Shown here: positions 55,666 through 64,000 of the stretch, piece after piece
Numbering within the stretch: the stretch's first letter is position 1
How the letters are laid out: the number at the start of each line of letters is the position of its first letter
Origin: Fulvivirga sp.
GTDB lineage: Bacteria > Bacteroidota > Bacteroidia > Cytophagales > Cyclobacteriaceae
Reading direction: 5' to 3'
Assembly (NCBI GenBank): GCA_028280565.1
Contig: JANQLQ010000067.1
Location: 1 to 64,000 of the forward strand
Length of the DNA: 64,000 bases
Notes under the pieces: model-generated
The model's database searches: none
What the model was told of the DNA's origin: nothing
Seen by the model: only the letters and a program-made list of their open reading frames with translations
Position numbers and translations under genes: made by a program

Positions 55666-55956
55666 ATGCAGACTCCCCAAGAAATAGAAAACAAACTAAA
55701 AACATTAAAGCCCTATATTCAAGATGAATTTGGTGTAGATCAAATTGGTTATTTTGGGTCATTTGCTCGCGGTGATCACAGGAATGATTCCGATTTGGAC
55801 CTATTAGTCACCTTTGGTAGCAAGATCGGCTGGAAGTTCTTTGATCTGAAAGACTACCTAGAAACTGCAATAGGAAGAAAGGTGGACTTGGTTACTGAAA
55901 GGTCCTTAAAAAGACAATGGAAACAAGCTATATTGAAGCAAGTTAAGTATATATGA
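55666..55956 (+). CDS. MntA-like antitoxin nucleotidyltransferase
   Basis: A 96-residue minimal nucleotidyltransferase with the motif FGSFARGDHRNDSDLDLLV (GSxxR then DxD). In the MntA-HepT type VII system, MntA polyadenylates the HepT RNase on a tyrosine and blocks it. It overlaps the hepT gene by four bases (ATGA). Confidence 0.88.
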   Translation: MQTPQEIENKLKTLKPYIQDEFGVDQIGYFGSFARGDHRNDSDLDLLVTFGSKIGWKFFDLKDYLETAIGRKVDLVTERSLKRQWKQAILKQVKYI

Positions 55957-56312
55957 TAGATAAGGGATACCTAGTCTACATTGAGGATATGATCGAAGCT
56001 ATCGACAAAATCATTCGATATTTAGATAAGGTCAAAGGATTAGAGGAGTTTTTGCAAAACGAAATGATGATAGATGCTGTAACTAGAAATTATGAGATCG
56101 TTGGGGAGGCAGCTAACCGGGTTCCTAAAGTGATCCAAGATAAATACCCCAAGCTCCCGTGGCGGCAAATGTATGGATTAAGAAACTTCGCGGCCCACGA
56201 ATATCACATTATTGATCCACAGATACTGTGGGAGATAGCGGAAGATCATCTAGTGGAAAATAAAATCCAACTAGAAGAAGTGTTACAAGAAGAGAGAAAA
56301 AGCCAGCACTAA
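55953..56312 (+). CDS. HepT-like RNase toxin (DUF86)
   Basis: A 119-residue all-helical HEPN protein. The active motif Rx4HxY is intact as RNFAAHEY (about residues 78-85); Tyr is the residue modified by MntA in studied systems. Coupled to the upstream antitoxin gene. Such pairs act in plasmid maintenance or phage defence; which applies here is unknown. It sits at the edge of an accessory region next to the dispersed repeat. Confidence 0.88.
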   Translation: MIDKGYLVYIEDMIEAIDKIIRYLDKVKGLEEFLQNEMMIDAVTRNYEIVGEAANRVPKVIQDKYPKLPWRQMYGLRNFAAHEYHIIDPQILWEIAEDHLVENKIQLEEVLQEERKSQH

Positions 56313-57159: not shown

Positions 57160-58530
57160 ATGGACCGGGAAAAAGAAGAAAACTCACAAGCTCTTAACCG
57201 GAGGGATTTTATAAAGCTTGGCGCCGTGGCTACCACCCTAGGAGCTACTTCCTTGGCAGCAGCCCAAAGCCAGTCCATAAAAGAGCTAGCGGAACACAAC
57301 AAACAAATGGGGATCAAGGCAGCGGAAAAGGCCTTTGAATTTGACAATACCTATAAACCCTTTGAGCAAAAAAACAACATTTTCATGGCCACCCTCACTG
57401 GCCGTTTGCCAGCCCTTCGAAAAAAGATGATGGGCTTCCACGGGCCGGGTGATATAGACCCCGAAACCCCGGGTATGGACCGCCTGGACTACGCCCTAAA
57501 AGAAGGCGGGTACGCCGGGGTGGAATACATGGCACCGGGTACTCCCGCCTCAATCCCTAATACTGGTGTGAACACCTGGAAGCAACGGACCCAGGCAGAC
57601 AAGCATCACCCTTTTGATTACCAATACCTTTTCGAGGATCAATACCACTTCCAAGACAAGGAACAAGCAACAAATGCCGTTAAGAAAGCCGCCAAACTTT
57701 ACGGCGCTGACCTGGCCGGGATCACCCCGAGAAACCCAAAGTTTGACTACGCCAAGTTCATTGACCCCCTCCATAAAAAAGAATTTGGGTGGGAAGAATT
57801 CCCCTTTGAACCTAAAAGTGTGATCGTTTTAGGGTTCGAAATGGATTACGAAGCATATACTACTGCCCCCACCTATGTATCCGAAGGAGCTACAGGCGAT
57901 GCCTATTCCAGGATCACCAAAACCACCCACCAGCTAGCCGTTTTTTTAAGGATACTGGGGTACAAAGCCGTAGCCAGCTGCAACGATACCGGCTTGAACA
58001 TTCCCTACGCCATATCCGCGGGATTGGGAGAAGGATCTAGGATGGGACTGCTGATCACTCCCGAGTTCGGCCCCAGGCTGAGGATCGGTAAAGTTTACAC
58101 CGAATTTGATGTTTGCAACTATGACCAACCTATCCAATTTGGGGTCACCGACTTTTGCGAACGATGCATGAAATGTGCGGATGCCTGCCCGGCCAGCGCG
58201 ATATCGCGAGACAAAAAGCCATCGTTCCGCCCAACTCACGGAAATAAAAATACTTTCTTCAATAACAAAGGAGTAAAAAAATGGCACCTGGACGCCGAGA
58301 AATGTTTCGGGTACTGGATGGAGATCAACGCAGGCTGTGGCGCCTGTATTGCTGCCTGCCCTTACAACAAACCAGGCTTCTGGCATCATAGGCTAGTAGA
58401 CCGGCTTACCGCCGCATCACCGGGCCCTCTCCACGACCTCATGCGTGAGATGGATGATATATTCGGGTACGGCAATACACATGATGGCCGAGCGGTCAAG
58501 GAATTCTGGAAAAATAAAGACTCGATATGA
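57160..58530 (+). CDS. Reductive dehalogenase-like protein RdhA 1, Tat-exported
   Basis: A 456-residue protein starting MDREKEENSQALNRRDFIKLG, a twin-arginine signal. The family's cobamide domain is in the middle, with Tyr249 in GDAYSRI and Arg294 in GLGEGSRMG, which by position correspond to the active-site Tyr and Arg of PceA. Two 4Fe-4S sites follow: C333-x2-C-x2-C-x3-CP (FCERCMKCADACP) and C382-x10-C-x2-C-x3-CP. The export signal fits respiratory-type RdhA and separates it from QueG, which lacks a Tat signal. Followed at 99 bases by a paralogue. Substrate cannot be told from sequence. Confidence 0.85.
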   Translation: MDREKEENSQALNRRDFIKLGAVATTLGATSLAAAQSQSIKELAEHNKQMGIKAAEKAFEFDNTYKPFEQKNNIFMATLTGRLPALRKKMMGFHGPGDIDPETPGMDRLDYALKEGGYAGVEYMAPGTPASIPNTGVNTWKQRTQADKHHPFDYQYLFEDQYHFQDKEQATNAVKKAAKLYGADLAGITPRNPKFDYAKFIDPLHKKEFGWEEFPFEPKSVIVLGFEMDYEAYTTAPTYVSEGATGDAYSRITKTTHQLAVFLRILGYKAVASCNDTGLNIPYAISAGLGEGSRMGLLITPEFGPRLRIGKVYTEFDVCNYDQPIQFGVTDFCERCMKCADACPASAISRDKKPSFRPTHGNKNTFFNNKGVKKWHLDAEKCFGYWMEINAGCGACIAACPYNKPGFWHHRLVDRLTAASPGPLHDLMREMDDIFGYGNTHDGRAVKEFWKNKDSI

Positions 58531-58629
58531 GCTAAGGCTTTGGCTCTTAACCTCACCGGTAAGAAAATTCCAAAGCTGCATTTGCGATTTGATCAAATGA
58601 TTGAATTAACAAGTTTAGACGTCAACAAA

Positions 58630-60060
58630 ATGAAATCACCAACGAAAACGATCCATAAAAAAGCCGGCAAACTAGGGCGACGCGACTTTTTCAAGCTGGG
58701 TGCCCTGGGAGCAGCATTGGGCGTCACGGGAGCATCCCAGGTGGCGGGAAATGCTGCTTCTAAGGCCTTGGATAAGGCCACGGACGATACCGTCTTCAAA
58801 AGCCCGGGACATGATCCTTTTGAGCTCAAACCCGGCTATCCTTATCGACGGTTCGATGAAATCAACACCTTTCAATCCACGGGACCTATGCGTCGGGATG
58901 CAAAAGTGATCCCTAAGATGGTCAAGTTCATTTGGCCCGGTTTTGATAACGACCAGGTAGGCTACCGGCAGGTAGACTGGGCGCTTTCCAAGGCAGGGCA
59001 ATCCCTGAAATTCAAAATGAAAACCTTAGAAGGAAAGTGGGACCAGGAGCGCTTTGACTTTACCATGCTGGACCTAAAGCCTACCGACATGGAGGATGAC
59101 GGCAAAAAGAAACCTGACATCTTAAAGATCTTGGAGGGGAATTATGTATACCCTGAAAAAGCCCCTTTCAAAACCAAGCAGGAGGCGACCGACGCCATAA
59201 AACGGGCAGCCAGGCTATACGGCGCCGACTTGGTGGGTATCACACCGCGTGACGAACGGTTCGACTACCAAGCGTTCTTCGACCCGAAGAATGGAAGAAG
59301 AAACTGGAAAGACGTCCCTTTTGAGCCAAAATCCGTCATAGTGATGGCTTTCGAGATGGACTATGAGGCCATGACAGCCGCGCCCACCCATGTGGCCGAC
59401 GGCGCCACGGGGGACGGGTATTCTCAAATGCATAAGACCTCCTACCAAATGGCGGTATTTATGAAGTGTCTTGGCTATCAAGCCATCCCTTCGAACAATG
59501 ACGTGGGCTTGAGCATCCCCTACGCCGTAAAAGCAGGCTTGGGAGAGGTAGGGCGGCATGGGTTGCTGATCACCTACAAATACGGCCCCAGGATCCGGCT
59601 GGCGAAGATCTACACGGATTTTGATTTTGTAGAATACGACAAGCCCATCGAATTTGGCGTACAGGAGTTCTGTAAACGTTGCATGCGCTGCGCGGATGTG
59701 TGCCCGTCCAATGCCATTACCAAAGCTATAAACCCTACGTATGAGCCGGAATTCCAGGACGAGAGCAACTGGTTTGTGAACCCGGGCTTTAAAAAATATT
59801 ACAATAACCTGAAAAAATGCTTTGACTTTTGGGTGGAGAACGGCAACGGGTGCAGCTCGTGTATCTCGGTATGCCCGTACAATAAACCTGACTTTTGGCA
59901 TCACCGCCTGGTAGACAAGATCTCCGCTATGCTGCCCGGCCCTGTCCACAGCTTTATGCGGGAGATGGACAAGATCTTTGGCTATGGGAATACCTACGAC
60001 GAAGGCGCCGTAAAAAGATTCTGGTCTAGCAAAAACAAAAAGTATCTCGGCTATAAGTGA
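58630..60060 (+). CDS. Reductive dehalogenase-like protein RdhA 2, Tat-exported
   Basis: About 476 residues from the ATG at 58630, chosen because it gives a proper Tat signal (KLGRRDFFKLGALG); the frame opens upstream with TTG. Tyr264 lies in GDGYSQM and an Arg in GLGEVGRHG. The 4Fe-4S sites are C348-x2-C-x2-C-x3-CP (FCKRCMRCADVCP) and C397-x10-C-x2-C-x3-CP. It is clearly homologous to the protein encoded upstream, differing mainly in an added segment near residues 90-170. Both could form a heterodimer or act on different substrates; which is not known. Confidence 0.85.
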   Translation: MKSPTKTIHKKAGKLGRRDFFKLGALGAALGVTGASQVAGNAASKALDKATDDTVFKSPGHDPFELKPGYPYRRFDEINTFQSTGPMRRDAKVIPKMVKFIWPGFDNDQVGYRQVDWALSKAGQSLKFKMKTLEGKWDQERFDFTMLDLKPTDMEDDGKKKPDILKILEGNYVYPEKAPFKTKQEATDAIKRAARLYGADLVGITPRDERFDYQAFFDPKNGRRNWKDVPFEPKSVIVMAFEMDYEAMTAAPTHVADGATGDGYSQMHKTSYQMAVFMKCLGYQAIPSNNDVGLSIPYAVKAGLGEVGRHGLLITYKYGPRIRLAKIYTDFDFVEYDKPIEFGVQEFCKRCMRCADVCPSNAITKAINPTYEPEFQDESNWFVNPGFKKYYNNLKKCFDFWVENGNGCSSCISVCPYNKPDFWHHRLVDKISAMLPGPVHSFMREMDKIFGYGNTYDEGAVKRFWSSKNKKYLGYK

Positions 60061-60078
60061 CCTAACCCAAACAAACCC

Positions 60079-61170
60079 ATGATCAAGATCAAAAGAATTG
60101 CCGGTATTACGTTGATGGGACTTGGAATTGTTGCCCTCCCGGTAGCACTATTGCTTAACCAGTCCGTAGGCAAACTGTTTTCTGAAAAATTCACCACCCA
60201 AGTCCTCCACGAGCAGGTTTTTTCCACGCCAAAATTAGCCACTCGTCTTAAAGCCGTAGTGAATGAACGTATGGCGGAGGTAACAGACCTCAAAACAGGA
60301 ATGATCATCGCCATTTTTTCAAAGGCTAGTGTACGTAAATGGCAAGAGCTGCTGGATGAGCTACTACCGGCCCGGCTAAGGGACCCGGTCATTGATAATA
60401 CATTTTCCGAAGCTTATCGCTGGATTGATGACGAAGAGCCTTATCCTGGTATCGTGATCTCCACCCAACCGGTGATCCAACACCTGCATCAAAATACGGA
60501 ATTCCTTTTCCGCTGGGCACATTCCGTCACGAGGCCCCCTATGCTGGAGGCCGGGGAGTTGATCGCCCTTAAACAACAGAATTATGGGGATAGCATACCC
60601 CCCTTGCTATTAGCCAATGTACCGGATTCACTTTACGACGAGTTTGCCCGGCGCGGGGGTGAATTGATGGCGTTGCAACTACAGCAGGCACAGCCGCCCA
60701 AGGAACTTAATGTCACGCAAATGATCCGTGAAAAGGTACCGGCGGAAGGGATAAAGGAAGCCAAAGCCGGGATCAAGAAAATACGATTCTTTTCATGTTG
60801 GTTATGGGTGATCATACTGGTCATACTCGCCGGGGGGGTAGGATTGTACGGGCCAAAAATCGGGGACATTTGGTCTCTTGCGATCAACTCCTTTGGCAGT
60901 ATGGCTATGATCATGTTTGCATTAGGGTGGCTGGCCAGCAATTATCTTTTGGACAACCTGGAATTAACGATCCATGCACAGGTCACCGGCATCCCCAGGG
61001 CCATAAGGGACCAATTGCTGGAACTCATTACCTATTACCTTGGGCATGCCAGTACGTTCCTGTACCGGGTCGGTTCCATACTCTTAGGATCGGTAGTGCT
61101 TCTTTCTATTGGGCGCCTGGTCAGCCAGCGGCCTCATTTATTTCTTCATCTAAAAACAAAAAAATCATGA
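60079..61170 (+). CDS. Unknown membrane protein in the rdh cluster
   Basis: A 363-residue protein with one N-terminal helix (about 8-27), a roughly 210-residue polar domain likely outside the cytoplasm, and three C-terminal helices (about 240-260, 272-292 and 328-348). It contains HxxE-like and Trp-rich patches but I do not recognise a family, cofactor site or the RdhB motif. It starts 18 bases after rdhA2 and overlaps the RdhB-like gene by four bases (ATGA), so it is a co-transcribed accessory part. It may shield or anchor the RdhA pair. Confidence 0.65.
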   Translation: MIKIKRIAGITLMGLGIVALPVALLLNQSVGKLFSEKFTTQVLHEQVFSTPKLATRLKAVVNERMAEVTDLKTGMIIAIFSKASVRKWQELLDELLPARLRDPVIDNTFSEAYRWIDDEEPYPGIVISTQPVIQHLHQNTEFLFRWAHSVTRPPMLEAGELIALKQQNYGDSIPPLLLANVPDSLYDEFARRGGELMALQLQQAQPPKELNVTQMIREKVPAEGIKEAKAGIKKIRFFSCWLWVIILVILAGGVGLYGPKIGDIWSLAINSFGSMAMIMFALGWLASNYLLDNLELTIHAQVTGIPRAIRDQLLELITYYLGHASTFLYRVGSILLGSVVLLSIGRLVSQRPHLFLHLKTKKS

Positions 61171-61466
61171 ATATCTTCAGCGGGATCGAGATCTTGTTCT
61201 TTTGGCTAGGTGTACTTACCACGTTATCCGTGGGGGTGTTGTTTTATTTGAACCGGGCGTACCGTTTCGATTGGAAGAGTTGGTCCTTGTCCGGTATGGG
61301 TGTATTCCTGTTGATCTTTTGTGTGGCATGGTCGGCCAGTTCCGTACTGGAGGGAGAACCCCAAGCCGCTGCGCTTGGGCTTGTTTTCTTCGGCTGCCCG
61401 GCAGTAGTCTTCTTTCTCCTCGCGAGGAGACTGGTCATCCCAGGTAAGAACGCAGAAAATGATTGA
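61167..61466 (+). CDS. RdhB-like membrane anchor
   Basis: A 99-residue protein with three hydrophobic segments (about 9-28, 40-60 and 66-87). The conserved RdhB signature around helix 3, WSASSVLEGEPQAAALGLVF (Glu-Gly-Glu, Ala-Ala, Gly), is present, and the chain ends in basic residues. RdhB tethers RdhA to the outer face of the cytoplasmic membrane. The start is the ATG overlapping the previous stop; a much longer open frame from 60795 lies mostly antiparallel in meaning to the 363-residue gene and is not coding upstream of this ATG. Confidence 0.78.
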   Translation: MNIFSGIEILFFWLGVLTTLSVGVLFYLNRAYRFDWKSWSLSGMGVFLLIFCVAWSASSVLEGEPQAAALGLVFFGCPAVVFFLLARRLVIPGKNAEND

Positions 61467-61468
61467 CC

Positions 61469-62710
61469 ATGTGTAGCAGCAGTTGCAAGGAGTGTAGTGT
61501 AAAACACAAGCCGCTGGCAGATAAAAAAGCGCTTAAGAGAAGAGAAACGTGGTGGAAAAAAGCGGTTTTATGGGTGGGTATGATCACCCTATTGGGGGCT
61601 TATGTTTATGGAAAAATATCGAACCTGCCGGACTACCAGTCTGTCTTCAACGAGTACTTTCCTGCCAGCGACATCAAACAGCTAAGTCATGAGCTATTTG
61701 TGATACACCAATCCGATACACTAAGCGCATACTTCAAGATCTCCTCAAATAATGGTTATGGAGGGCCATTGGAGATAGGTGTAGCCATAAAACCAGATAC
61801 CACCATAGGGCAGGTGATCGTGATCTCCGAAAAAGAAACACAGTCGTTTTTCAATAAACTCGTAAACTATGATTTTTTCGAGCAGTTCGAAGGATTACCG
61901 CTTCAAAATAAATTGCAAACCGGCGAAGATATCGACGGGGTTTCAAGCGCTACAGTTTCGTCCGTGGCCTTTACTCATGCGATCCGGGAGGCTGCGCACC
62001 AGTTTGCCGAAAGCAAGTACGGCCTCACAGGTCTTTCTCCCCAGCCACGGCTAAGTTTTGGTTTTAGTGAAATATCCATACTAGCACTATTGACCTGGTC
62101 TATCGCTTTGTATTTTAAAAAGAATAAAAAATTGCTCTACGCATTGCACCTGGTGGCGTTGGTCCTCATCGGGTTTTACCTGAACTTGTCCATCTCCATC
62201 ACTAATTTTGGCAGCTTTCTTCAAGGCTATTTTCCCAATGTATACGACTACCTCGTATGGTATATTTTGGTCATCGGCGTACTTATAGGTGCATTGGTTT
62301 TTGGAAAAAACGTCTATTGCTACCGAATATGCCCGTTTTATTCCGTACAGTGGCTGGCCAACCGCGTCTCCGGCATTAACCTGGACTTAACCACGAAGAT
62401 GGGAATAGTGGCGAAATACATGGCCGGGGTATTGCTTTGGGGATCGTTATTGGTGGGATTCTTAGAAGCCACCCCTTCAGTGGGATCTTACGAGCCCTTC
62501 GCTACCCTTTTTTCTTTTGATGGAGAGGGTGCACAATGGTTTATTTTACCCGCTGTTTTCTTTTCTTCCTTTTTTATCAAGGAGGTCTTTTGCAGGTACT
62601 ATTGTCCCGTAGGTAGCTTCCTCAAGTTTATCATTATCAAGGTGAGAAAACCTATTATCAAGCAAGTACAATCATGGCAAAACCCAAAGGTAAAGCAAGC
62701 TATTTCGTAG
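61469..62710 (+). CDS. RdhC/NosR-like FMN-binding membrane protein
   Basis: A 413-residue protein from the ATG at 61469, two bases after the RdhB stop. The cysteine-rich N terminus (CSSSCKECS) is followed by a membrane helix, a periplasmic FMN-binding domain (about 70-180) with EDIDGVSSATVSS, where the Thr/Ser could carry FMN, and five or so C-terminal helices with CYRICPF and CRYYCPVG, the paired CxxxCP motifs of the NosR/NirI/RdhC family. Such proteins pass electrons from quinol or other donors to periplasmic reductases, or help maturation. The neighbour RdhA and RdhB genes support RdhC over NosR. Confidence 0.83.
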   Translation: MCSSSCKECSVKHKPLADKKALKRRETWWKKAVLWVGMITLLGAYVYGKISNLPDYQSVFNEYFPASDIKQLSHELFVIHQSDTLSAYFKISSNNGYGGPLEIGVAIKPDTTIGQVIVISEKETQSFFNKLVNYDFFEQFEGLPLQNKLQTGEDIDGVSSATVSSVAFTHAIREAAHQFAESKYGLTGLSPQPRLSFGFSEISILALLTWSIALYFKKNKKLLYALHLVALVLIGFYLNLSISITNFGSFLQGYFPNVYDYLVWYILVIGVLIGALVFGKNVYCYRICPFYSVQWLANRVSGINLDLTTKMGIVAKYMAGVLLWGSLLVGFLEATPSVGSYEPFATLFSFDGEGAQWFILPAVFFSSFFIKEVFCRYYCPVGSFLKFIIIKVRKPIIKQVQSWQNPKVKQAIS

Positions 62711-62772
62711 CAGGTATGATGTATGTCATAATTTTAGTGGCAATACTGATTTTCTTCATGTCCGCAACCTGA
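62674..62772 (+). CDS. 32-residue membrane microprotein overlapping rdhC
   Basis: An ATG-initiated frame encodes MAKPKGKASYFVAGMMYVII, continuing LVAILIFFMSAT, so a short basic head and one strongly hydrophobic helix. It overlaps the last 37 bases of the RdhC-like gene in another frame and ends 62 bases past it. The topology (positive head, one helix) is that of a real small subunit rather than a random frame, but there is no homology evidence. It is too short for normal ORF calling. Confidence 0.5.
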   Translation: MAKPKGKASYFVAGMMYVIILVAILIFFMSAT

Positions 62773-62990: not shown

Positions 62991-64000
62991 ATGGAATCTC
63001 TTGACAGCGTCATCATCCTGTTTTCCGGTGATTCTGGGGACGGCATGCAGCTCACAGGCACCCAGTTTTCCAATACCTCGGCTATGATGGGCAATGATAT
63101 CTCCACTTTCCCGGATTACCCGTCGGAGATCCGGGCGCCTTCCGGTACCGTATTTGGTGTGTCCGGCTTCCAGGTCAATATTGGGGCGGAAGAAATATTC
63201 ACCCCAGGCGATCAACCGGATGTATTGGTAGCTATGAACCCGGCAGCACTTAAGGCGAAGTTGCCTTCTTTAAAGAAAAATGCCACGATCATCCTCGATG
63301 ATGATGCCTTTGACAGGGTAAGCATGAAAAAGGCCGGTTACAAAGTATTTACGGTCGGGGAATTGGACGAGCTGCTGGAGTATAAGGTCATCCATGCACA
63401 GATCACCTCGCAGACAGAAAAGGCACTGGAAAACTTAGACCTGTCTACAAAGCAAAAAAGAAGGTGTAAGAACTTCTATGCGCTCGGGCTTTGCTATTTT
63501 GTCTTTTCCCGGAGTAGGGATTCTACCAAAAAATGGATCAAGGAAAAGTTTAAAGACAACCCCGTATTGCTGGAAGCGAATATCCTGGCACTAGACACCG
63601 GCTACCATTTCGGTGAAACCATAGAGGCTTCTATTTCCACCTACCGTATCGATGAGGCCAAGATAGCAAAAGGAACCTACCGCCAGGTCAACGGGAACAC
63701 GGGGGTAGCATGGGGCTTAATGCAAGCTGCGCAGGCATCGGGATTGGATCTATTCGTAGGCTCCTATCCCATAACCCCTGCCACGGATATTTTACAGGAA
63801 CTTGCCAAACACCAGCGTTTCGGGGTAAAAGCCTTCCAGGCAGAAGATGAAATTGCCGGGATATGCTCGGCGATAGGGGCATCCTTTGGAGGGGCGTTGG
63901 CGGCGACTACCACTTCAGGGCCCGGTTTCGCCCTCAAATCCGAGGCTTTGAACCTGGCCGTGATGCTGGAGCTACCGTTGGTGGTCGTGAATGTACAACG
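62991..64000 (+). CDS. korA: 2-oxoacid:ferredoxin oxidoreductase alpha subunit (partial)
   Basis: Starts at ATG 62991 and runs off the window after 336 codons. The N part (FSGDSGDGMQLTGTQFS) is the gamma-type domain and the next part (residues about 225-336, VGSYPITPATDIL) begins the alpha domain, a fused gamma-alpha layout typical of KorA. These enzymes oxidise 2-oxoglutarate or a similar acid and reduce ferredoxin. The gene is a plausible low-potential electron source near the rdh genes, but it is also a normal housekeeping gene, and its partner korB would lie beyond the right edge. Confidence 0.88.
   Translation, partial: MESLDSVIILFSGDSGDGMQLTGTQFSNTSAMMGNDISTFPDYPSEIRAPSGTVFGVSGFQVNIGAEEIFTPGDQPDVLVAMNPAALKAKLPSLKKNATIILDDDAFDRVSMKKAGYKVFTVGELDELLEYKVIHAQITSQTEKALENLDLSTKQKRRCKNFYALGLCYFVFSRSRDSTKKWIKEKFKDNPVLLEANILALDTGYHFGETIEASISTYRIDEAKIAKGTYRQVNGNTGVAWGLMQAAQASGLDLFVGSYPITPATDILQELAKHQRFGVKAFQAEDEIAGICSAIGASFGGALAATTTSGPGFALKSEALNLAVMLELPLVVVNVQ

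Follow-up and report, generated by a model that had tools for sequence, protein, structure and literature searches.

The window, i.e. the whole stretch of DNA analyzed here, comprises 64,000 nucleotides of a Fulvivirga sp. genome (GenBank assembly GCA_028280565.1, contig JANQLQ010000067.1, positions 1 to 64,000) and carries close to its end five genes that are all oriented in the same direction (57160-62710, plus strand). These encode two putative catalytic subunits of reductive dehalogenases (RdhA1 and RdhA2), a membrane protein termed RdhX, the membrane anchor RdhB and the flavoprotein RdhC, and are followed by the genes for a 2-oxoacid:ferredoxin oxidoreductase (KorAB). In the labels used below, G stands for genome, C for contig and L for locus; the genome containing the window is G000 and the window itself G000:C34. 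The features are as follows:

57160..58530, plus strand: rdhA1, predicted corrinoid/4Fe-4S reductive dehalogenase of 456 residues exported by twin-arginine translocation (Tat) (TIGR02486, AlphaFold2 (AF2) model, Tyr249/Asn275/Arg308)
58630..60060, plus strand: rdhA2, second predicted Tat-exported reductive dehalogenase (TIGR02486, catalytic and menaquinol-pocket residues)
60079..61170, plus strand: rdhX, membrane protein of 363 residues with a predicted helical extracytoplasmic domain and about four transmembrane (TM) helices (homology to RdhB-RdhX fusions)
61167..61466, plus strand: rdhB, membrane anchor of 99 residues with three TM helices and the EGE motif in the loop between helices 2 and 3
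61469..62710 (alternative start 61463), plus strand: rdhC, FMN-binding Fer4_5/NosR-like membrane flavoprotein (FMN_bind, Fer4_5)
62991..64000, plus strand, cut by the window end: korA, 2-oxoacid:ferredoxin oxidoreductase alpha subunit (full gene G000:C34:62991-64838)
64825-65823, beyond the window and after korA: korB

The preliminary description of this DNA had the genes running in one direction with overlaps and the set ending at 62772. The common direction was borne out, while an overlap was found between rdhX and rdhB (ATGA) and neither between rdhA1 and rdhA2 nor between rdhA2 and rdhX; the set holds up to 62710, and the remaining 18-residue hydrophobic open reading frame (ORF; 62716-62772) has no positional counterpart in three relatives. 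The ORF now called rdhX had been left unidentified. For rdhA2, the ATG at 58630 was preferred over the TTG at 58540 in the ORF list as the better fit to orthologues (comparison with L041). The G+C content was 49-51% for rdhA1, rdhA2, rdhX and rdhB, 44% for rdhC and 45% for the window. Neither a cobalamin riboswitch nor any other RNA was detected between 50000 and 64000 of the window, and an RNA search of eight loci returned only two tRNAs at gathering thresholds as well as one sub-threshold miRNA match.

Both RdhA proteins, which are 44% identical to each other, exceeded the cut-off of 160.35 bits for the reductive dehalogenase (RDH) family TIGR02486 (211.5 bits for RdhA1 and 210.3 bits for RdhA2). 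They carry the Tat motifs RRDFIK (RdhA1) and RRDFFK (RdhA2) as well as the 4Fe-4S motifs Cx2Cx2Cx3CP and Cx10Cx2Cx3CP, the combination by which respiratory RdhA are defined (RRXFXK with CXXCXXCXXXCP and CXXCXXXCP, as given in an excerpt of PMC6797604). TatC is encoded in the genome, and hydropathy indicated no TM segments in either protein. The catalytic Tyr, Asn and Arg are preserved by alignment in both proteins and in 8 listed orthologues, corresponding to Tyr249, Asn275 and Arg308 in RdhA1; the SmPceA numbering of the Tyr and Arg we take to be Y246/R305. For DhPceA, PMC10624902 gives Y337/R396 as catalytic residues, and the menaquinol-pocket positions examined, in its numbering, were K489, R499, H495, D515 and Y520. 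Equivalents of four of these five positions (K489, H495, D515 and Y520) are preserved in both RdhA proteins and the same 8 orthologues, which points to respiration. RdhA1 and RdhA2 differ near the active site, and their C-terminal tails are different as well.

Structure comparison gave a similar picture. By sequence, the first PDB match of both proteins was the Desulfitobacterium PceA 8q4h, followed by the Sulfurospirillum entry 4uqu, with QueG far behind. The AF2 model of RdhA1 (pLDDT 83.0, pTM 0.83, alignment of 33 rows) matched 8q4h best (TM 0.73/0.67, E 5.8e-34), while its best QueG match reached 1.8e-7. A tree was calculated from 77 rows, comprising RdhA ORFs of at least 400 residues together with four QueG sequences, the cores of two PDB entries and four RdhA taken as references from plasmid records, after 4 of 81 candidates had been dropped for lack of a core match; it was built by a quick method with supports from the Shimodaira-Hasegawa-like approximate likelihood ratio test (SH-aLRT) and no bootstrap. 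RdhA1 fell into a clade of four rows and RdhA2 into one of five (six with the Melioribacteraceae locus L043), each with 100% SH-aLRT support and both among respiratory RdhA of Bacteroidota, and QueG lay far outside as the outgroup. Contigs C170 and C333 of the same genome encode three further RdhA, which formed a separate clade with those of L085 and L087. Exact placement of DhPceA, the Dehalococcoides rows and SmPceA is unsure, the former two lying on long branches and the latter filling less than half of the columns.

Three other identities were considered for these proteins and rejected. QueG is contradicted by scores of 38.5 and 50.1 bits against the TIGR00276 cut-off of 200 and by the tree. 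A catabolic enzyme of the NpRdhA/BhbA kind does not fit the Tat signals, the lack of a reductase domain in Pfam and the tree, in which the catabolic-type Nitratireductor and Comamonas rows occupy a long separate branch and show no Tat motif in the first 30 residues. A hybrid RdhA with N-terminal TM helices does not agree with the hydropathy profile or the presence of a Tat signal and rdhB. Judged by their sequences, RdhA1 and RdhA2 carry all marks of the respiratory type. The preliminary description had proposed two RdhA paralogues with twin-arginine signals and two 4Fe-4S sites each; this was confirmed, as were their position outside the QueG group (by bit score and tree and, for RdhA1, also by model) and the presence of the catalytic Tyr and Arg in both proteins by alignment.

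The remaining two canonical components were likewise recognized as first described. RdhB, proposed as an anchor with an EGE-AA-G signature, contains three TM segments and the sequence LEGEPQAAALG, and it thus shows the EXE motif and three TM helices of a cognate anchor. RdhC, proposed as an FMN protein with CxxxCP pairs, matched FMN_bind (46.1 bits) and Fer4_5 (39.2 bits) in Pfam and has two CX3CP motifs. An additional N-terminal CX3CX2C motif (window 61469-61500) was present in the RdhC of 4/4 cassettes and in none of the 42 other RdhC ORFs (46 examined); as a guess, it could be a cluster or ferredoxin docking site. At the same N-terminal place, the RdhC of the Endozoicomonadaceae loci L063 and L075 exhibits CX2CX3C.

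Among the 98 genomes of the relatives search (own included), only the genome of the window had an RDH match over cut-off. It contains three rdh operons: A1-A2-X-B-C-KorA-KorB in the window (C34), TetR-A-A-(B-X fusion)-C on C170 and A-(B-X fusion)-C on C333. The latter two are located as follows:

L036:931-6959 (G000:C170): two tandem rdhA and an RdhB-RdhX fusion, with a TetR gene in front
L037:4821-8913 (G000:C333): operon with an RdhB-RdhX fusion

The genome scan returned 58 loci. Three of these, from a Croceivirga metagenome-assembled genome (MAG; L039), Flavobacteriaceae bacterium GF1 (L041) and a Winogradskyella MAG (L042), were complete Flavobacteriaceae loci, all containing orthologues of both RdhA as well as RdhX, RdhB, RdhC and KorAB; L040, L043 and L044 were truncated by contig ends. 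The gene order in these three was A2-X-A1-B-C, followed by KorA-KorB and a MarR gene, so that the position of rdhA1 differs from that in the window. Identity to the window proteins was 80-81% for RdhA1, 82-85% for RdhA2, 46-48% for RdhX, 59-66% for RdhB, 58-62% for RdhC and 71-72% for KorA. RdhA1 and RdhA2 represent separate orthologous groups that were present together in 4/4 complete cassettes. The dN/dS values of L041 versus L039, the only pair for which they could be computed since the other pairs tried were saturated, were 0.027 (RdhA1), 0.025 (RdhA2), 0.13 (RdhX), 0.14 (RdhB), 0.065 (RdhC) and 0.074 (KorA); in this pair RdhA1 and RdhA2 are equally constrained and neither is decaying. No plasmid record covering 80% of RdhA2 was found in the plasmid search. 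A second rdh operon of the Croceivirga MAG (L165:5705-10383, G098:C70) comprises A, C and a B-X fusion as well as a gene that looked TetR-like by eye; it resembles the C170 operon except for having one rdhA only.

The claim that two catalytic paralogues under one anchor are unusual was substantiated: two full rdhA were accompanied by just one RdhB domain in 5/61 loci (C34 and C170 of the own genome, L039, L041 and L042), a count in which many loci are shortened by contig ends, and all five have RdhX. L070 and L082 encode two full RdhA and are outside this count because of a second RdhB-like domain (EGVPRA for EGE) fused to RdhC. L064 and L075 have one rdhB per rdhA, and the second rdhA of L077 is in pieces. 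Bin names point to a coral-skeleton origin for several cassette records. IP29b, the bin prefix of L039 and L040, is also used in a paper on MAGs from coral skeletons (PMC9868349), and its further sample names PL23a, PL25a and PL25b fit PL24a and PL23b of L042-L044; L041 is outside this series. The main text of that paper contained no match to 'dehalogen' or 'organohal'.

RdhX did not match any Pfam or NCBIfam family. Over nearly its full length it is homologous to the region behind RdhB in the fusion proteins (hhalign probability 99.8, E 9e-29), and a profile of five stand-alone RdhX recovered 4/4 fusions at E <= 8.7e-22 and 0/2000 shuffled decoys at E <= 10. All 12 RdhX copies found adjoin an rdhA (own C34, C170 and C333, two in G098, and one each in G099, G100, G102, G572, G573, G101, truncated by a contig end, and G806); nine of them had entered via rdhA searches or the choice of rdh genomes, and the unbiased part, i.e. 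the phylum sample apart from the own genome and the class sample, added only G806, where RdhX is also beside rdhA. Six copies stand alone, each directly after an rdhA2-type gene, and six are fused behind RdhB. RdhX is rare, with 1/395 genomes of the phylum sample (own) and 2/389 in the class of G573 (G573 and G806). It was present in 7/22 rdh-bearing genomes searched (the genome of L047 left out), eight of which had been listed because the cassette or RdhX was already known; seven of these eight have RdhX, and in the eighth, G103, the rdh contig is cut.

Hydropathy, with positive charges inside, placed the RdhX domain of about 210 residues on the same side as the EGE loop of RdhB, and the topology of the fusions is consistent with this charge distribution. 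In PceA2B2, the EGE-loop side of the anchor is the periplasmic side on which RdhA resides (PMC10624902, relevant excerpt). The AF2 model of RdhX was helical throughout except for a few residues (pLDDT 82.6, pTM 0.65, eight sequences), and Foldseek returned no PDB or BFVD match for it at E <= 0.001. RdhX probably serves as a subunit whose helical domain lies in the periplasm. A correlation between the C-terminal tail of RdhA and RdhX was considered and dropped because tail-less RdhA occur without RdhX too. No description of RdhX or of such an RdhB fusion was found in the literature searched, whose scope excluded most subscription journals and all preprints. RdhX would be the new element of the cassette, provided that it is unrelated to accessory proteins of which little is known, such as CprZ.

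Gene content, residues, the fold of the RdhA1 model, orthology and the RdhX-RdhB fusion are all compatible with a cassette that has been exchanged horizontally and serves respiratory reductive dehalogenation, an explanation to which we assign a probability of about 0.72; the substrates would most likely be natural organohalides. In the proposed scheme, RdhA1 and RdhA2 would fold with a cobamide and two 4Fe-4S clusters, be exported by the Tat system and be seated on RdhB at the outer face of the cytoplasmic membrane. Menaquinol would be oxidized at the RdhA/RdhB interface, and its electrons would pass via the distal and then the proximal cluster to the Co(I) cobamide, which would expel the halide from the organohalide, the proton being donated by the conserved Tyr. 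RdhC, with its FMN outside, may provide a second electron path or act as reactivator, while RdhX would be linked to RdhB as a third membrane subunit, with its helical domain on the RdhA side.

Four observations weigh against this interpretation. The pocket residue R499 is replaced in the residue alignment (D in RdhA1 and RdhA2, E in SmPceA), even though a phmmer alignment places an Arg at this position through a gap. RdhC has SSATVS and thereby departs from the FMN-site consensus [S/T]G[A/S]TX[S/T] published for RdhC (excerpt of PMC5928378), with the FMN threonine preserved. RdhX was found in 0/14 rdh-bearing genomes that had not been preselected for the cassette or RdhX and is therefore dispensable for dehalogenation in general. 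Finally, the same-genus genome G010 has KorAB and the Rieske and thiamine diphosphate (ThDP) enzyme genes downstream of it, with neither an rdhA over cut-off nor a full RdhC; its contig starts 243 bases before korA, and an assembly gap is therefore possible.

The KorA piece in the window matched POR and POR_N in Pfam, while TIGR03710 remained below cut-off for the cut piece, and it is the only KorA match in the own genome; any KorA match was found in 23/58 relatives (own included) and in 13/80 genomes of the family Flavobacteriaceae (G099 included). We conjecture that KorAB supplies electrons to dehalogenation. With nearly even odds, it is unrelated to dehalogenation and was placed there by one ancestral insertion or transfer, as the gene content of G010 and the position of the KorA of the Melioribacteraceae genome G101 outside the cassette clade would suggest. 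On the other hand, KorAB follows rdhC in two distant families, either directly or past one DUF6580 gene, it is retained in 3/3 complete Flavobacteriaceae cassettes, and the KorA of the window, G098, G099 and G100 cassettes form a clade with those of G103 and G010 (100% SH-aLRT) that is separate from the KorA of other relatives sampled.

Several genes near KorAB were recorded in passing. The DUF6580 gene encodes a membrane protein, possibly a transporter, and lies between rdhC and korA in the contig of L039 (L130:935-1528) and before korA in G103 (L133:256-849), while a 32-residue remnant is left in L041. Downstream of KorAB, L038:11125-19420 encodes a Rieske-ThDP enzyme, a Na/H exchanger, a Rieske-glutamate synthase-like enzyme and a Rieske-ferric reductase protein, a gene set conserved in G010. 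L038:10022-10595, on the minus strand after korB, encodes a HigB-like toxin (PF05015) and an HTH_3 protein, and just upstream of the operon (window 55666-56312) a pair of an MntA-like nucleotidyltransferase and a HepT-like toxin was present (Pfam NTP_transf_2 and HepT-like).

How the two RdhA are used can be read in several ways. The preliminary description suggested a heterodimer, for which the joint occurrence of the two orthologous groups in 4/4 complete cassettes and their equal purifying selection in the one measurable pair would be indirect support; if the pair acts as a unit, an RdhA1-RdhA2 heterodimer and two complementary enzymes appear about equally likely. Somewhat short of even is the chance that A1-B and A2-B are independent homodimeric enzymes for different substrates that share an anchor gene and promoter and extend the substrate range. 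This would be in line with the independence of the two active sites in PceA2B2 (excerpt of PMC10624902), with operons in which each rdhA has its own rdhB (L064, L075 and L077) or one A is combined with B-X (C333 and L085), and with the differences between RdhA1 and RdhA2 in the tail and near the active site. Against independence stands the joint retention of both in all complete cassettes at similar divergence and with equal dN/dS in the L041-L039 pair, a pattern that also fits two complementary enzymes.

It is rather unlikely that RdhX acts in maturation or assembly, as an RdhT-like protein would, without belonging to the completed complex as a subunit. Its fast evolution relative to RdhA and the lack of an RdhT-like protein among the scanned neighbours would suit such a factor, but half of all RdhX copies form one chain with RdhB, which implies a fixed ratio and permanent proximity.

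Detoxification or assimilation instead of respiration, the alternative raised in the preliminary description, is improbable. It was argued there from the missing regulator, and the Pfam scan of the proteins between 54.2 and 64.0 kb indeed revealed neither a CprK-type regulator nor an RdhT-like protein (trigger factor). This argument is weak, since the sister operon on C170 has a TetR gene, the Flavobacteriaceae cassettes have a MarR gene after KorB and the menaquinol-pocket residues are preserved. The MarR of the relatives was considered as the missing regulator by synteny and rejected, as the own genome has just a 30% match on another contig. The nearest relatives of the cassette are found in Flavobacteriaceae, which are mostly aerobic bacteria, and this would also favour detoxification or assimilation; the Tat signals, RdhB, RdhC, the pocket residues and the distant, Tat-less catabolic branch speak against it. 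For rdh clusters of Desulfoluna, RdhC and MarR-type regulators are described in PMC7031245.

Least probable is an asymmetric dehalogenase in which RdhA1 on RdhB and RdhA2 on RdhX would form a heterodimer with different membrane partners, and RdhC with its N-terminal Cys motif would supply low-potential electrons both from ferredoxin reduced by KorAB and from menaquinol: hints are the adjacency of A2 and X (6/6 stand-alone cases) and of A1 and B (3/3 complete Flavobacteriaceae cassettes), RdhX in 5/5 loci with two RdhA and one RdhB as opposed to a second RdhB-like domain in L070 and L082, the adjoining KorAB and the cassette-specific CX3CX2C, while five B-X fusions with a single RdhA (C333, G098 C70, L085, L087 and G806) and KorAB without rdh in G010 speak against it.

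The respiratory cassette that we favour resembles PceA2B2, the menaquinol:organohalide oxidoreductase of Desulfitobacterium hafniense TCE1 (8q4h; excerpt of PMC10624902), in the RdhA fold (RdhA1) and sequence (both), the catalytic Tyr/Arg, the K/H/D/Y of the pocket and the three-TM anchor with an EXE loop. Unlike PceA2B2, it has two RdhA genes per RdhB, the extra RdhX, and RdhC and KorAB adjacent. It shares the part of the RdhA tree and the A-B-C order with single-RdhA clusters of other Bacteroidota (Marinifilum, Labilibaculum, Carboxylicivirga and others), which have one RdhA, no RdhX or KorAB match in the loci compared and an RdhC without the N-terminal CX3CX2C. The tandem reductive dehalogenase (RDase) pairs of Aarhus Bay bin.26 (excerpt of PMC12090745) also have adjacent rdhA genes, there with equal transcript numbers; bin.26 belongs to Bacillota. 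Hybrid RDases with N-terminal TM helices (excerpt of PMC6797604) likewise include Bacteroidota hosts and a fusion of complex parts, yet they fuse RdhA to the anchor and have no Tat signal, whereas here RdhA has one and relatives fuse the anchor to RdhX. The RdhC/PceC family (excerpt of PMC5928378) shares the FMN-binding domain with its conserved Thr and two CX3CP motifs, in contrast to the SSATVS and the extra N-terminal motif found here.

Other arrangements were noted among the compared loci. RdhB-like domains fused to RdhC with EGVPRA replacing EGE were seen in four loci of Desulfobacterota/Deltaproteobacteria type (L070:9196-10722, L074:7754-9451, L078:5849-7348 and L082:7579-9111). Fusions of an RdhB-like domain to RdhA were N-terminal in L065:3015-4718 and C-terminal in L076:119-2002. 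In the Vibrionaceae rdh loci L079, L080 and L081 (5-9 kb), rdhC is on the strand opposite to rdhAB.

Already published are the occurrence of RDases in 112 Bacteroidota genomes and of tandem RDase pairs with equal transcription (PMC12090745), RdhC in Bacteroidetes (PMC5928378) and hybrid membrane RdhA (PMC6797604); the RdhX family and the conserved two-RdhA cassette go further. The electron supply of respiratory dehalogenases is still debated, and the PDB matches obtained included no RdhA-RdhB complex other than 8q4h. A cassette that retains two catalytic subunits together, and whose relatives join an additional protein to the anchor, would allow the composition of the complex and the entry of electrons to be addressed directly. 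The cassette further points to a role for natural organohalides in Bacteroidota outside the classical dehalorespirers, perhaps including lineages of the coral skeleton.

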